From positions 1 to 36,414 of the forward strand of contig JASKKI010000019.1 in NCBI GenBank assembly GCA_030154225.1: DNA of 36,414 nt. The letters run 5' to 3'. The notes under the pieces are model-generated. The model saw nothing but the letters and a program-made list of their open reading frames with translations. It made no database searches and was not told the origin of the DNA. This DNA is from Clostridia bacterium. Lineage in GTDB: Bacteria > Bacillota > Peptococcia > Peptococcales > BICA1-8. Each line of letters begins with the position of its first letter. Position 1 is the first letter of the stretch. Below, in pieces: positions 530 through 27,558 of the stretch. A program made the position numbers and the translations under genes.

Positions 530-3500
530 TTGACAAAGAAAAAAATATGGAATGTGCAAAAAATAAAAAGTGATTTACAAGAGCGATTAGTAGAAAAACT
601 TAACATTTCTCCTACTTTAGCCATACTCTTAATTAACAGGGGTTACCATGATGAAGAAGCTGCTTTAAACTTTTTATATCCCAGCTTAAAGGACCTAAGT
701 TCACCTTTTATTTTAAATAATGTTAGACAGGCTGTTGACAGGATAAAAAAAGCAATCAATAACCAGGAAAAAATTGTAGTTTACGGGGATTATGATGTAG
801 ACGGTATTACCAGTACAACCCTTTTAACAGAAGTACTAAGATCAATAGGGGCAGATGTCAATTATTATATACCGGATAGAATCGAAGAAGGATATGGCTT
901 AAATATTGATGCGTTAGAACAGCTATCTCAAAATGGTGTGCAATTAATTATTACCGTTGATTGTGGGATCAGTGCTAAAAATGAGGTTATTGTGGGTCAA
1001 AGTTTGGGACTGGAATTCATAATTACCGACCATCACCAACCCCCGGCAGAACTACCGCCTTGTATTGTTATAAATCCTGCTCTGGAACAAGAAAATGTAC
1101 CTTGGAAAGATTTAGCGGGTGTAGGAGTAGCATATAAATTAGCTCAAGGTTTATTAGAAACTTTTAGAGGACAGAAGGAAGGGCAAAAAGAAATTTTAAA
1201 TTATTTAGACCTTGCTGCACTGGGTACTATTGCAGATATTGTACCGTTGATGGGAGAAAACAGAATTATTGTTAAATATGGTTTAGAGCAAATAATTTCG
1301 GGAAATCGTTTAGGAATTAAAGCATTATGTAAAGCTGCTAATATTGATCTTACTAATATAACATCAACAGTGATCGGTTACTTTCTTGCTCCTCGTTTGA
1401 ATGCTTGTGGGCGTATTGGTGATGCAAATTTAGGGGTAAGATTACTTTTAACATCTAATGAAATAGAGGCCAGCCAAATTGCTCAAAAATTAAATAATGA
1501 AAACCAGAAAAGGCAGACTATTGAAAACAAAATTATCCGGGAAGCCATGGAAATGGTAGAGGAGCTGGATTTAAGTAAAGAGAAAGTAATTGTACTTACC
1601 TCCAAAGACTGGCACCAAGGTGTTATAGGTATTGTGGCTTCCCGTTTGGTTGAAAAATATTATCGTCCGACAATAATTTTAACTCTCCAAAATAATTTAT
1701 ATAAAGGTTCTGGTCGGAGTATCCCGGGATTTCATCTCTATCAAGCTCTCTCCCAATGCCATTATCTACTGGAAAATTACGGTGGTCATAGCCAGGCTGC
1801 CGGGTTAAGTTTACTAGAGGAAAATATTCCGGAATTTAAAAAAAGGATTAATATAATTGCCGATGCAAGCCTCTGTGAAAATGATTTTATACCAGCTTTA
1901 GATTTAGACGGGGAGATTAATTTAGAAACAGCTGATTTTACTCTACTAGAAGAAATAACTAAGCTAGAGCCTTTCGGGTGTGCTAATCCCGAGCCACTGT
2001 TAATTTATAGACAGGGTGAAGTTCAGGAATGTAGAGAAGTAGGAAATAATGGTGGTCATTTAAAATTAAAGATTAAAGCGGGAAGTTCCCAATGGGATGC
2101 TATAGGTTTTAATATGTCCAGTTATTTAGAAATGGCTGCGTCCCGGGAACCATTAGACCTTGCTTTTACTTTAGACAAAAACCACTGGAATGGAAAAACT
2201 AATTTACAATTAGTATTAAAAGATCTGAAACCTTCTACTGAATTGGATAATCCCAATGAACCTCTTAATTTTCTGGATCGACTTTTTTTTGAGGGCCCCC
2301 AATTTTTAGAGGAAGACGTTTATAAAGATATAAATAGTAAAGGTGCTTTTTATACCAAAGTTGTGGGAGTTACATATGAAAATCGCCAAGCCCTGATCAG
2401 GATGCTAAAAAAGGATGACAGCATAAATTTAGTGCGTGAACATGGAAATATTTATGATCCTAATGCCATAGCAGTATATGTAAAAGATGAGCAGATAGGC
2501 TACTTAAAAAAAGAGCTAGCCAAACACCTGGCCCAAAATATAGATAAAGGCATCAGGTATTGTGGATATATTGCTCAAATTACTGGAGGAGAAGCTAAAA
2601 ATCTTGGTGTTAATATCTATCTGAAAAAAGATGAAAAAAGTGATAAAGATAATTTTTTAAATTTAAAAATTTTAAGAAAAGAACTTTCATCTTTAAACAC
2701 TTCAGAACTTATGAATGTTATTAAAAAGGCAGTAATAGGAGACCATACTTATCGGTCCAAACAGGTTGAAACACTAGAATGTCTGGCTAATGGTTATAAT
2801 ACTTTAGGTATTTTAGGTACTGGTCGGGGTAAATCGGCAATATTTCAGACCTGGGCAGCTTTTTTAGCATTATCCCGTCGCAAAATAACTATTATTATCT
2901 ATCCCTTAAGATCTTTAGTTAATGACCAATTTATTTCGCTGAAAAATAAACTAGCTCCATTAGGACTAAATGTCTTTAAAGCCACTGGTTCTTTAGAACC
3001 GGAAGAAAGATTGGAGTTATTTACAAGTTTAGAAAGGGGAGATATTGATATAATCTTAACTACCCCGGAATTTTTGTATTATAACAAGCATAAATTTCAG
3101 GCATTAATAGATGTTCTCGGACTAGTTGTGATAGATGAATGCCACCATTTAGCATCTCGTAGACAGGGTTACAAACTTCTACCTCAAGTTTTAAAAGAGT
3201 TGAGTAATCCTCGGTTACTTCTGGTAACGGCAACTGCCGACGATAATATTAGCAAAGTTATTTTGGAAAAATTAAATATTGAAAAAATTGTTATTGATCC
3301 TCACGTCAGGGATAATTTAATTTTGATTGACGAACGTGGGTGTAATGATAAAATTGGATATATAAAAAAATTGTTAGACTCCGGAGAAAGAACAGTAGTA
3401 TATGTTAATAGTCGTAAAATAGCTTATAACCTGGCTAGAGACTTGCGCCGAGATATACCCTGGTCTAAAGATAAAATAGCATATTATCATGGTGGATTAA

Positions 3501-4150
3501 GTAGTGATGATCGCCAGGGTATTGAAGAGTTTTTTAGGCAAGGTTCTTTACAATTAATTATTACAACCAGTGCTTTTGGGGAAGGTATTGATATACCTGA
3601 TATAGAAAATGTTGTTTTATACCATCTTTGTTTTTCCAAAGAAGAATATAATCAATTAGCCGGCAGGGCGGGAAGAAATGGTGAAAAGGCAAAAATACAT
3701 TTGCTTTATGGAACTAAAGATAAAGAATTAAACCAGCTATTATTGGCAGGTACTTCCCCTGACCGGGAGCAGCTTGCAAAATTTTATTTATTACTTAAAA
3801 AATTGGCTAAGAAAAGTCATCCCATTACTTTTACTAATTCTCAACTGGCAGAATGGGCAAATATTTATAAAATTTCTGGGGTTCAGGATAAAAATATTAG
3901 TATTTGGCTAGGAATATTAGAAGAATTAGGAATAATAGAACGTGAAATAGAAGGAAATACCCGTAACATTTATATTGTGCCTAATCCTCCAAAAGTTAAC
4001 TTAGAGGATTCATTACGATACTTGGAAGGGATTGAAGAAAAGAATAATTTTGAGGAATATGTTGAACTAGCTTTTCAAAATACTTCCCAACCTTTATTAG
4101 AACTTATTAACAGGCCAATTTACCCAACTAAAATAGTTATTAATGACTAG
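530..4150 (+). CDS. recJ: RecJ exonuclease fused to HIRAN domain and RecQ-like helicase
   Basis: Encodes about 1206 residues, roughly twice the length of an ordinary RecJ. Residues 1-575 are RecJ, the 5'-3' single-strand DNA exonuclease: GDYDVDG near 86-92, a VDCG aspartate near 144, DHH near 167-169, DLAALGTIADIVPL near 227-240, and DHHA1 GGHSQAAG near 418-425, followed by the OB domain. Residues about 605-700 look like a HIRAN domain (VVGVTYENRQ, YDPNAIAV, IGYLKKELA). Residues about 735-1100 are a superfamily 2 helicase: GTGRGKS near 763, DECHH near 869, VTATA near 899, QLAGRAGRNG near 1042. A winged-helix-like tail follows, with no cysteines and therefore no RecQ zinc site. I chose TTG at 530 because GGAGG lies 7 bases upstream; ATG at 524 is only one base from it. 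The inferred role is combined unwinding and resection in recombinational repair. Confidence 0.93.
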   Translation: MTKKKIWNVQKIKSDLQERLVEKLNISPTLAILLINRGYHDEEAALNFLYPSLKDLSSPFILNNVRQAVDRIKKAINNQEKIVVYGDYDVDGITSTTLLTEVLRSIGADVNYYIPDRIEEGYGLNIDALEQLSQNGVQLIITVDCGISAKNEVIVGQSLGLEFIITDHHQPPAELPPCIVINPALEQENVPWKDLAGVGVAYKLAQGLLETFRGQKEGQKEILNYLDLAALGTIADIVPLMGENRIIVKYGLEQIISGNRLGIKALCKAANIDLTNITSTVIGYFLAPRLNACGRIGDANLGVRLLLTSNEIEASQIAQKLNNENQKRQTIENKIIREAMEMVEELDLSKEKVIVLTSKDWHQGVIGIVASRLVEKYYRPTIILTLQNNLYKGSGRSIPGFHLYQALSQCHYLLENYGGHSQAAGLSLLEENIPEFKKRINIIADASLCENDFIPALDLDGEINLETADFTLLEEITKLEPFGCANPEPLLIYRQGEVQECREVGNNGGHLKLKIKAGSSQWDAIGFNMSSYLEMAASREPLDLAFTLDKNHWNGKTNLQLVLKDLKPSTELDNPNEPLNFLDRLFFEGPQFLEEDVYKDINSKGAFYTKVVGVTYENRQALIRMLKKDDSINLVREHGNIYDPNAIAVYVKDEQIGYLKKELAKHLAQNIDKGIRYCGYIAQITGGEAKNLGVNIYLKKDEKSDKDNFLNLKILRKELSSLNTSELMNVIKKAVIGDHTYRSKQVETLECLANGYNTLGILGTGRGKSAIFQTWAAFLALSRRKITIIIYPLRSLVNDQFISLKNKLAPLGLNVFKATGSLEPEERLELFTSLERGDIDIILTTPEFLYYNKHKFQALIDVLGLVVIDECHHLASRRQGYKLLPQVLKELSNPRLLLVTATADDNISKVILEKLNIEKIVIDPHVRDNLILIDERGCNDKIGYIKKLLDSGERTVVYVNSRKIAYNLARDLRRDIPWSKDKIAYYHGGLSSDDRQGIEEFFRQGSLQLIITTSAFGEGIDIPDIENVVLYHLCFSKEEYNQLAGRAGRNGEKAKIHLLYGTKDKELNQLLLAGTSPDREQLAKFYLLLKKLAKKSHPITFTNSQLAEWANIYKISGVQDKNISIWLGILEELGIIEREIEGNTRNIYIVPNPPKVNLEDSLRYLEGIEEKNNFEEYVELAFQNTSQPLLELINRPIYPTKIVIND

Positions 4151-9500: not shown

Positions 9501-9745
9501 AATAAAGGATAAAAACTATGAAAAGGCAAGTAGATAGGATGTTTTTTAACAGGGAGAAACTGCCGTGACTGAAAGCAGTTTTTAAAAAAACCTATTGAAA
9601 GAACACCTTGGAGTTGATACTTACGGCATCCGGGGCACCGTTAACTGCTAATAAGTGGGGCATAATTTTTAATATGCTCAAATTGGGTGGTACCGCGGGT
9701 TAGTCTCGTCCCAAAATTTTTTTGGAGTCGAGACTTTTTTATTTA
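9501..9745 (+). promoter_or_regulatory. T-box leader controlling hisS-aspS
   Basis: This gene-free stretch is a T-box riboswitch. Stem I pairs ATAGG and TTTTTTAA near 9535-9549 with TTAAAAAAA and CCTAT near 9582-9595, with an AGTAGAT element on the 5' side of the specifier loop. The 3' side of the loop reads GAACACCTT at 9601-9609, offering CAC (His, 9604-9606) or AAC (Asn, 9603-9605 shifted to 9602-9604 depending on register). The core T-box GGGTGGTACCGCGG is at 9685-9698, followed by the terminator hairpin at 9702-9740. Uncharged tRNA binding is expected to favour the antiterminator and allow synthetase expression. Confidence 0.93.
9702..9740 (+). terminator. T-box attenuator terminator before hisS
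   Basis: AGTCTCG at 9702-9708 pairs with CGAGACT at 9729-9735 and is followed by a T run. Its 5' arm directly follows the T-box core, so it competes with the antiterminator. Confidence 0.9.
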
Positions 9746-12919: not shown

Positions 12920-13140
12920 AAGAAATAGATTAGAAACTCCCTACGATGTTCGTGGGGCTAAAAGGTAGTTTTGAGCCAACACTAACACATAGGGAGCTTA
13001 ACTCTGGTTGCGTAGTAAATGCCCGGTTTTGGGACTTATGAAACAATCAGGAGGGCACCCACCTGCGGGAGCAGGTTCAAAACTCCGGCACCACGGCATA
13101 TGTGGGGTGAATAAACGCAGTTAACTACTGCGTATTTTTT
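12920..13140 (+). ncRNA. ssrS: 6S RNA
   Basis: This gene-free interval holds a long rod-like RNA. The closing stem pairs CCCTAC (12939-12944) and CGTGG (12951-12955) with CCACG (13091-13095) and GTGGGG (13102-13107), separated by internal mismatches, with a large central region between. The position between aspS and the tcdA homologue is that of bsrA (6S-1 RNA) in Bacillus subtilis. A promoter precedes it and an intrinsic terminator ends it. 6S RNA mimics an open promoter and sequesters sigma-A RNA polymerase holoenzyme. The exact 5' end is approximate. Confidence 0.85.
13115..13140 (+). terminator. Intrinsic terminator of 6S RNA
   Basis: ACGCAGT at 13115-13121 pairs with ACTGCGT at 13127-13133 around a 5-base loop, followed by A and a run of T. 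Confidence 0.9.
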
Positions 13141-15931: not shown

Positions 15932-15951
15932 AACTTTAAAAGGTGATTTTT

Positions 15952-17250
15952 GTGGATTTATTTACTTCTGTAAAAGAAGAACACATACAAAGAAATGCTC
16001 CTTTAGCTGACCGTATGCGACCCAAAACCTTGGATGAAATCATCGGACAAGATGAAATCCTGGCTCAGGGCAAGCTTTTAAGGCGGTCCATTGAGGCAGA
16101 TCGCTTAAATTCGTTAATTTTTTATGGACCTCCCGGTTGTGGAAAAACAACTATTGCCAGTGTAATTGCTAAAATTACCAGGGGCTATTTTTCTAAATTA
16201 AATGCGGTTACTTCAGGTGTACAGGACCTTAGAAAGCTTATTTTAGAAGCTGAAGAAAGATTAGGTATGTATCAACAGCATACAATAGTATTTATTGATG
16301 AAATTCACAGGTTTAATAAAAGTCAACAGGATGCTTTACTACCAGCAGTAGAAAAGGGAGTTATTATTTTGATTGGCGCTACTACGGAAAATCCTTATTT
16401 TAGTATTAATTCAGCTCTTTTATCAAGATCCTTATTATTTAAATTAAACCCCTTAACAGAAGATGATATAATACTCATATTGAAAAAAAGTATACGGGAT
16501 AATGAACGAGGCTTAGGAAATTATAACATTAATATTTCTCAAGAAGCTCTAAAGCATTTAGCCCGTTATGCCCAGGGTGATGCTCGAATTGCCTTAAATG
16601 GTCTGGAACTTGCTGTGGTTTCTACTCCACCGGATAATAAAGGTGTAAGGGTCATCGATTTAAAAACCGTGGAAGAATCTATTCAAAGACCTGCAATCAT
16701 GTATGACAAAACAGGTGACCAGCACTATGATGTTATATCTGCTTTCATAAAAAGTATGAGAGGTTCTGACCCCCATGCTACTTTACATTATTTAGCACGT
16801 ATGTTAGATGCAGGTGAAGACCCTAGGTTTATTGCCAGAAGAATAGTTGTTCATGCTGCAGAAGATGTGGGTCTAGCTGATCCGCAAGCTTTAGTTGTTG
16901 CCCAAAGTGCTGCCCAGGCAGTAGATTTTATCGGACTTCCTGAAGGGAGACTGATTTTGGCTGAAGCAGCTCTTTATATTGCTTTAGCTCCAAAAAGTAA
17001 TTCAGTATTAAAGGGGATAAATGAAGCATTAATGGATATCAAAAAAGGGAAAATTGGAACAGTACCAAAACACCTGAGAGATAATCATTACAAAGGGGCT
17101 AAAGAGCTAGGTCATGGAAATGAATATTTATATCCCCACGACTATCCGGATCATTTTGTAAAACAACATTATTTACCTGATATTTTAAAAGATAAAAAGT
17201 ATTATGTACCATCCCAGGAAGGGCAAGAAAATAAATACATAAAAAAATAA
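15952..17250 (+). CDS. rarA: RarA/MgsA replication-associated recombination ATPase
   Basis: AAA+ ATPase of 432 residues related to clamp-loader subunits and RuvB, acting at stalled replication forks. Walker A GPPGCGKTT is at 59-67 and Walker B FIDEIHRF with DE near 116-117; IGATTENPYF is sensor 1, and the C-terminal tetramerisation region contains RMLDAGEDPRFIARR. It is the homologue of Bacillus YrvN. I prefer GTG at 15952, because AAGGTGA lies 5 bases upstream; a GTG at 15943 would place the start inside that site. It occupies the same place as in Bacillus, between tcdA and the Rrf2 regulator. Confidence 0.95.
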   Translation: MDLFTSVKEEHIQRNAPLADRMRPKTLDEIIGQDEILAQGKLLRRSIEADRLNSLIFYGPPGCGKTTIASVIAKITRGYFSKLNAVTSGVQDLRKLILEAEERLGMYQQHTIVFIDEIHRFNKSQQDALLPAVEKGVIILIGATTENPYFSINSALLSRSLLFKLNPLTEDDIILILKKSIRDNERGLGNYNINISQEALKHLARYAQGDARIALNGLELAVVSTPPDNKGVRVIDLKTVEESIQRPAIMYDKTGDQHYDVISAFIKSMRGSDPHATLHYLARMLDAGEDPRFIARRIVVHAAEDVGLADPQALVVAQSAAQAVDFIGLPEGRLILAEAALYIALAPKSNSVLKGINEALMDIKKGKIGTVPKHLRDNHYKGAKELGHGNEYLYPHDYPDHFVKQHYLPDILKDKKYYVPSQEGQENKYIKK

Positions 17251-27147: not shown

Positions 27148-27558
27148 ATGCGGGTAATGGCTTTAGATATTGGTGATAAACGGATTGGTATAGCTCTTAG
27201 TGATCCTTTAAAAATAACTGCGCAAGGCCTAACAACATTAAACCGGATAACTTTGGAAAAGGATATTGGATATATCTGTGACCTATTAAACCAGTATGAA
27301 GTTTCTGAATTGGTGGTTGGACTTCCTAAAAATATGAACGGTACAATAGGACCACAAGTGGAAAAAGTAAAAGAATTTGTAAATAGTTTGCTTCAAAAAA
27401 AACAGATAAAAGTAAGTTATGTGGATGAAAGGTTAAGTACTGTTACAGCGGAAAGAACCTTAATAGCAGGTGATTTGTCAAGAAAAAAACGTAAAAATTT
27501 TGTTGATAAACTAGCAGCTACCGTAATTTTACAAAGTTATTTAGACCGTGTTAAATAG
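27148..27558 (+). CDS. ruvX: Holliday junction resolvase-like RuvX (YqgF)
   Basis: A 136-residue RNase H-fold nuclease of the YqgF/RuvX family, proposed to act in Holliday junction resolution or 16S rRNA maturation. The signatures are MALDIGDKRIGIALSDP (about 4-20) with the first catalytic Asp, VVGLPKNMNG (about 57-66) and YVDERLSTVTAE (about 91-102). Its position before the DUF1292 gene is the standard Firmicute order. A GGGATGG site precedes the ATG. A T-rich run follows the stop but no clear hairpin. Confidence 0.95.
   Translation: MRVMALDIGDKRIGIALSDPLKITAQGLTTLNRITLEKDIGYICDLLNQYEVSELVVGLPKNMNGTIGPQVEKVKEFVNSLLQKKQIKVSYVDERLSTVTAERTLIAGDLSRKKRKNFVDKLAATVILQSYLDRVK

Follow-up and report, generated by a model that had tools for sequence, protein, structure and literature searches.

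A gene for RecJ, HIRAN and a helicase in one chain

The window, by which we mean the whole stretch of 36,414 nucleotides that was analysed, carries on its forward strand a gene (positions 530 to 4150, stop codon included) in which a RecJ exonuclease, a HIRAN domain and a RecQ-like helicase follow one another in a single polypeptide. The open frame is uninterrupted and runs for 1212 codons from TTG 512 to its end at 4150. Judging from the sequence, TTG 530 is the likely start of the gene, giving a protein of 1206 aa; a ribosome-binding site, GGAGG, lies on the same strand at 518 to 522, 7 nt before it. Residues are numbered here from TTG 512, not 530. The three-part architecture had been proposed in a first-pass annotation, and a domain search with Pfam and NCBIfam bears it out; relatives of the protein have the same architecture.

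The RecJ core (608 to 2227) is complete, as had been claimed. Its DHH (770–1228, residues 87–239), DHHA1 (1580–1852, residues 357–447) and RecJ_OB (1904–2224, residues 465–571) domains all score above their Pfam cut-offs, and the NCBIfam equivalog model recJ (TIGR00644) matches with 602 bits against a cut-off of 396.9. When aligned with E. coli RecJ, the catalytic motifs GDYDVDG (DxDxDG), VDCG, DHH and GGH are all intact. The HIRAN domain follows at 2342 to 2623 (residues 611–704; 605–700 in the first-pass annotation), with 51 bits against the PF08797 cut-off of 24.7 (E 1.2e-13). It is well conserved across relatives of the fusion protein, and a profile of the fusion-family HIRAN finds the HLTF HIRAN structures at 1e-10; by eye only, HLTF Y93 corresponds to the tyrosine of IYDPNAI.

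The remainder of the protein is a superfamily 2 helicase, in which every main motif is intact, as the first-pass annotation had stated. RecA-like lobe 1 (2723 to 3289; Pfam DEAD, residues 750–915, above cut-off) holds motif Q, the Walker A motif GTGRGKS near 2816–2836, PLRSLVNDQ (motif Ia), DECHH (DExH) near 3134 and TATA (motif III), and lobe 2 (3293 to 3715; Pfam Helicase_C, residues 947–1057, above cut-off) holds YVNSR, TTSAFGEGID and QLAGRAGR as motifs IV, V and VI. A helical hairpin and winged helix (3737 to 4129) form the tail, which shares homology with the last part of PF10141 in ordinary Bacillota RecJ.

Likeness of the motor to RecQ

The RecQ family model recQ_fam (TIGR00614) gives the motor 168 bits, below the curated cut-off of 219.8, and covers model positions 4–352 only. 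The four zinc cysteines of the RecQ RQC region are absent, in agreement with the earlier reading: after motif VI the sequence passes straight into the helical hairpin and winged helix. An AlphaFold model of residues 600–1207 (pLDDT 89.4) has the RecQ catalytic core 1oyw as its top Foldseek match (E 2e-22), and the best match of the model of lobe 2 plus winged helix is the D2-Zn-WH part of human RecQ1. With low overall TM-scores (about 0.5 and 0.45), the likeness to RecQ is one of domains. As modelled, the fusion motor has RecQ-like lobes and a winged helix. Because the helicase falls below the RecQ family cut-off, its polarity could differ from that of RecQ.

Distribution and genomic context

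A full-length fusion is present in about two dozen of 60 relatives, at 36–61% identity. While a scan of genome contigs with the single sequence gave no match, an alignment-based scan detected the relatives. The pattern scan of 84,980 species genomes returned 190 relatives of the HIRAN-helicase half, and the 80 that were kept come from Peptococcaceae, Thermincola, Orenia, Anaerospora, Coriobacteriia, other Actinomycetota and one Eremiobacterota. The fusion is intact in at least 24 of 299 evenly sampled Bacillota genomes, a count that includes one locus (L047 of genome G024) added from the HMM dissection described below. To judge from these matches, the predicted three-domain order, whose spread the first-pass annotation had left open, is widespread in many Bacillota and also in Actinomycetota, where its distribution is drawn from named contigs of the pattern scan rather than from even sampling.

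Several variants of the gene were also seen. A standalone ORF of 657 aa (L196, G178:C1:749800-752800, at 516–2486) consists of HIRAN and an intact RecQ-like helicase, and its host genome G178 has a RecJ with a dead helicase (L197). In the Eremiobacterota contig (L129, 2331–4304) a HIRAN-helicase ORF has no RecJ in front, the gene directly before it being secF-like by eye. One genome that has a RecJ at L037 also has, at a contig edge, a second segment of RecJ OB, lobe 2 and winged helix (L062, G004:C29). In two open frames of 1550 and 1655 aa (L122 and L123) RecJ begins only at residue 350–457, which reflects either an N-terminal extension or an upstream frame without a stop.

In the source genome the fusion is the only RecJ, with no second recJ and no separate RecQ found above cut-off, and HIRAN occurs nowhere but in the fusion gene; AddA is present as a separate gene. 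Elsewhere in the window lie RarA/MgsA (15943–17247), an AAA+ ATPase and another fork-repair protein, and RuvX (27148–27555). A T-box leader that scores above the Rfam gathering threshold (9509–9716) lies upstream of hisS (9807), and a 6S RNA (12935–13112) has aspS on one side and a ThiF-family gene on the other.

Decay of the helicase in other RecJ proteins

HMM dissection of about 150 RecJ proteins revealed a series of forms. Some have an intact helicase with HIRAN, and others, in Collinsella, Eggerthellaceae and several Clostridia, have an intact helicase and no HIRAN. As HIRAN has been lost in several lineages whose helicase is intact, it is dispensable, and end binding is not essential: the domain is an aid to the enzyme, not a requirement. 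In a further form lobe 1 is recognisable but dead (L043, L044, L181, L183, L197 and L205), and in another HIRAN and lobe 1 are gone and only lobe 2 and the winged helix are left; the latter includes L037, L038, L041 and L042, four proteins of the same family or order as the window, and in L037 the arginine-finger motif is missing even from the lobe 2 that remains. Finally, ordinary RecJ proteins of about 800 aa show weak traces of the helicase. Walker A and DExH are kept in all 84 proteins of the intact class, and Walker A, DExH and motif VI in none of the 70 proteins of decay classes C–F. Taken together, RecJ proteins of other Bacillota cover all stages of the decay of the helicase.

The PF10141 tail of ordinary RecJ

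In profile-profile alignments, the tails of nine RecJ groups, Bacilli among them, match lobe 2 plus winged helix with probabilities of 96.1–99.9%, compared with 0.1–0.5% for reversed and column-shuffled controls. Pooled tail and helicase profiles align end to end (100%, E 4e-47), but since the pooled profile takes in two clear remnants, the test by groups is the stronger one. Furthermore, Pfam PF10141 itself gives two hits below its cut-off, one to the remnant L042 (9.6e-5) and one to the intact fusion L040, in its tail (1.3e-4). Searched against structures, the tail profile finds RecJ 8y30, a structure of Bacillota type (3e-15), and then RecQ lobe 2 (3e-7). It gave no match to 5f54 or 2zxo, and we claim no homology for the RecJ tails of Deinococcus and Thermus. 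The case for homology is carried by sequence profiles, 8y30 being absent from the best 50 Foldseek matches of the model of lobe 2 plus winged helix.

The PF10141 tails of the ordinary Bacillota RecJ proteins that were sampled thus appear to be worn-down versions of a helicase lobe 2 and winged helix. A domain that Pfam names without a function would be explained by homology, as a predicted dead motor lobe with its winged helix.

Evolutionary history

In a tree of the RecJ core, intact forms do not stand apart from decayed ones but alternate with them. Forcing all intact fusions into one clade is rejected (p-AU 8e-8), and at least five times intact and decayed forms stand together inside small starred branches, for example in the window family, in Orenia with L205 and in L171–L173 with L181. 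Distances in RecJ and in the helicase are correlated (r = 0.879), with none of 999 permutations reaching as high a value; the two halves of the fusion are co-inherited. Parsimony requires 13 changes when gains and losses are both allowed, whereas an ancestral fusion implies 27 losses. Support for the deep branches of this tree is weak, so the fusion may or may not date back to the common ancestor of Bacillota, and the scatter of intact forms could also be produced by horizontal transfer of whole fusion genes. We speculate, with belief and doubt evenly balanced, that much or all of Bacillota RecJ descends from a RecJ-HIRAN-RecQ-like fusion, and that the C-terminal domain of ordinary RecJ in the phylum, including that of the Bacillus type (PF10141), is a pseudo-helicase, retained for docking where the motor was repeatedly lost.

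Proposed function

RecJ digests single strands that have a 5' end, RecQ unwinds in the 3'-5' direction, and the two are classic separate partners in resection by the RecF pathway. Resection is carried out by RecJ and RecQ together (PMC4846377), and both are active at arrested forks (PMC3000357). We consider it moderately probable that the fusion is a coupled 5'-strand resection enzyme that acts at ends or stalled forks, an all-in-one solution to end processing whose decayed relatives would keep a non-enzymatic tail. The compact resection or fork-processing machine envisaged by the first-pass annotation fits the predicted anatomy of the fusion. The RecQ-like motor would move 3'-5' on the 3'-ended strand and unwind the duplex ahead; the displaced 5'-ended strand would be fed by the motor into the RecJ channel and consumed there while the motor runs on into the duplex. 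HIRAN, bound to a free 3' end or a branched junction, may load the enzyme, or set its orientation, where gaps, ends or stalled forks occur. We infer from homology the 5'-3' polarity of the RecJ exonuclease, the polarity of the helicase, the binding of 3' ends by HIRAN and the coupling of these activities.

After decay of the motor, lobe 2 and the winged helix (PF10141) would stay as a tail that might serve as a docking site for SSB or as structural support. Docking of SSB is a reasonable guess as to why they are retained, because in B. subtilis RecJ is co-purified with SSB and needs the SSB C-terminus for its localisation (PMC3000357), the winged helix of E. coli RecQ is apparently bound by the SSB tip (PMC7145534), and the SSB tip is also bound by the tail of Deinococcus RecJ (PMC4846377), a tail without detectable homology here. 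Given the homology, binding of SSB by the PF10141 remnant, in the manner of the RecQ winged helix, becomes a testable idea. In addition, a natural single chain would allow the coupling of helicase and nuclease to be studied in one purified protein. Bacterial HIRAN domains can be fused to phosphoesterases or nucleases, RecJ not being named among them (PMC4666394), and we found no paper in one open-access library that names RecJ and HIRAN together; an earlier mention elsewhere is possible.

The fusion might instead be a fork remodeller and not an end resectase: at a stalled fork HIRAN would capture the nascent 3' end, as in HLTF/Rad5, fork regression or unwinding would fall to the motor, and the nascent 5' strand would be trimmed by RecJ. 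The match of the fusion HIRAN to that of HLTF, which depends on the domain for fork remodelling (PMC4666394), speaks for this idea, as does the work of RecJ and RecQ at arrested forks (PMC3000357). However, the motor is RecQ-like rather than SWI2/SNF2-like and stays intact in lineages without HIRAN, and we regard a remodeller as possible but rather unlikely. It overlaps with the reading as a resection enzyme, and sequence cannot separate the two. The decay of the helicase raises the further idea that this half serves RecJ chiefly for docking, for instance of SSB, or as a structural module, with motor activity secondary and hence often lost. Within the family or order of the window, at least four relatives keep lobe 2 and the winged helix without HIRAN and lobe 1, and such decay is repeated, whether counted as 13 parsimony changes or as 27 losses from an ancestral fusion. 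However, Walker A and DExH are intact in the window protein and 83 others, which implies selection for ATPase activity in these proteins and makes a mainly structural role doubtful.

We also considered whether the fused motor is no more than a stand-in for a RecQ that was lost, as the lack of a separate RecQ above cut-off in the source genome might suggest. Yet of the intact-fusion genomes, which number at least 24, 14 also have a separate RecQ-family match (three of the 14 being very long RecQ-like ORFs, not ordinary RecQ), against about 93 of 275 others; the fused motor is therefore not simply a substitute for RecQ, and we hold replacement to be very improbable. Long ORFs of about 1605–1640 aa, in which only two RecQ lobes are matched, were seen in G021, G055, G121, G298 and others. 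An artefact of assembly or a chance joining of two genes, as well as a frameshift at about 2250–2350, had been named as ways in which the fusion might prove spurious. The same full-length ORF recurs in about two dozen independent genomes among the first 60 relatives and in many named contigs, across Bacillota and Actinomycetota, and the frame is uninterrupted, its full-length homologs being many and independent. We reject both, the artefact being so improbable as to be negligible.

Comparison with known systems

The fusion combines parts that occur in several known systems. With RecJ (TIGR00644), including Bacillota RecJ with PF10141, it shares the complete RecJ core, and the PF10141 tail is homologous to its lobe 2 and winged helix, whereas ordinary RecJ is without HIRAN, lobe 1 and the ATPase motifs. 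Like RecQ (TIGR00614), it has two RecA-like lobes and then a winged helix, and RecQ proteins are its best structure matches; unlike RecQ, its motor scores under the family cut-off, lacks the zinc cysteines and is placed behind RecJ and HIRAN. HLTF/Rad5 likewise has HIRAN adjoining a superfamily 2 motor, but in the fusion the motor is RecQ-like, the RING is absent and a RecJ nuclease is attached. AddAB/RecBCD also join a helicase to a nuclease for end processing, although their SF1 motors and PD-(D/E)XK nuclease are unrelated to those of the fusion. In WRN, too, a nuclease and a RecQ-type helicase share a single polypeptide, but the nuclease is a 3'-5' exonuclease unrelated to RecJ. The wider result is that the tail of ordinary Bacillota RecJ appears to be the remnant of a helicase.
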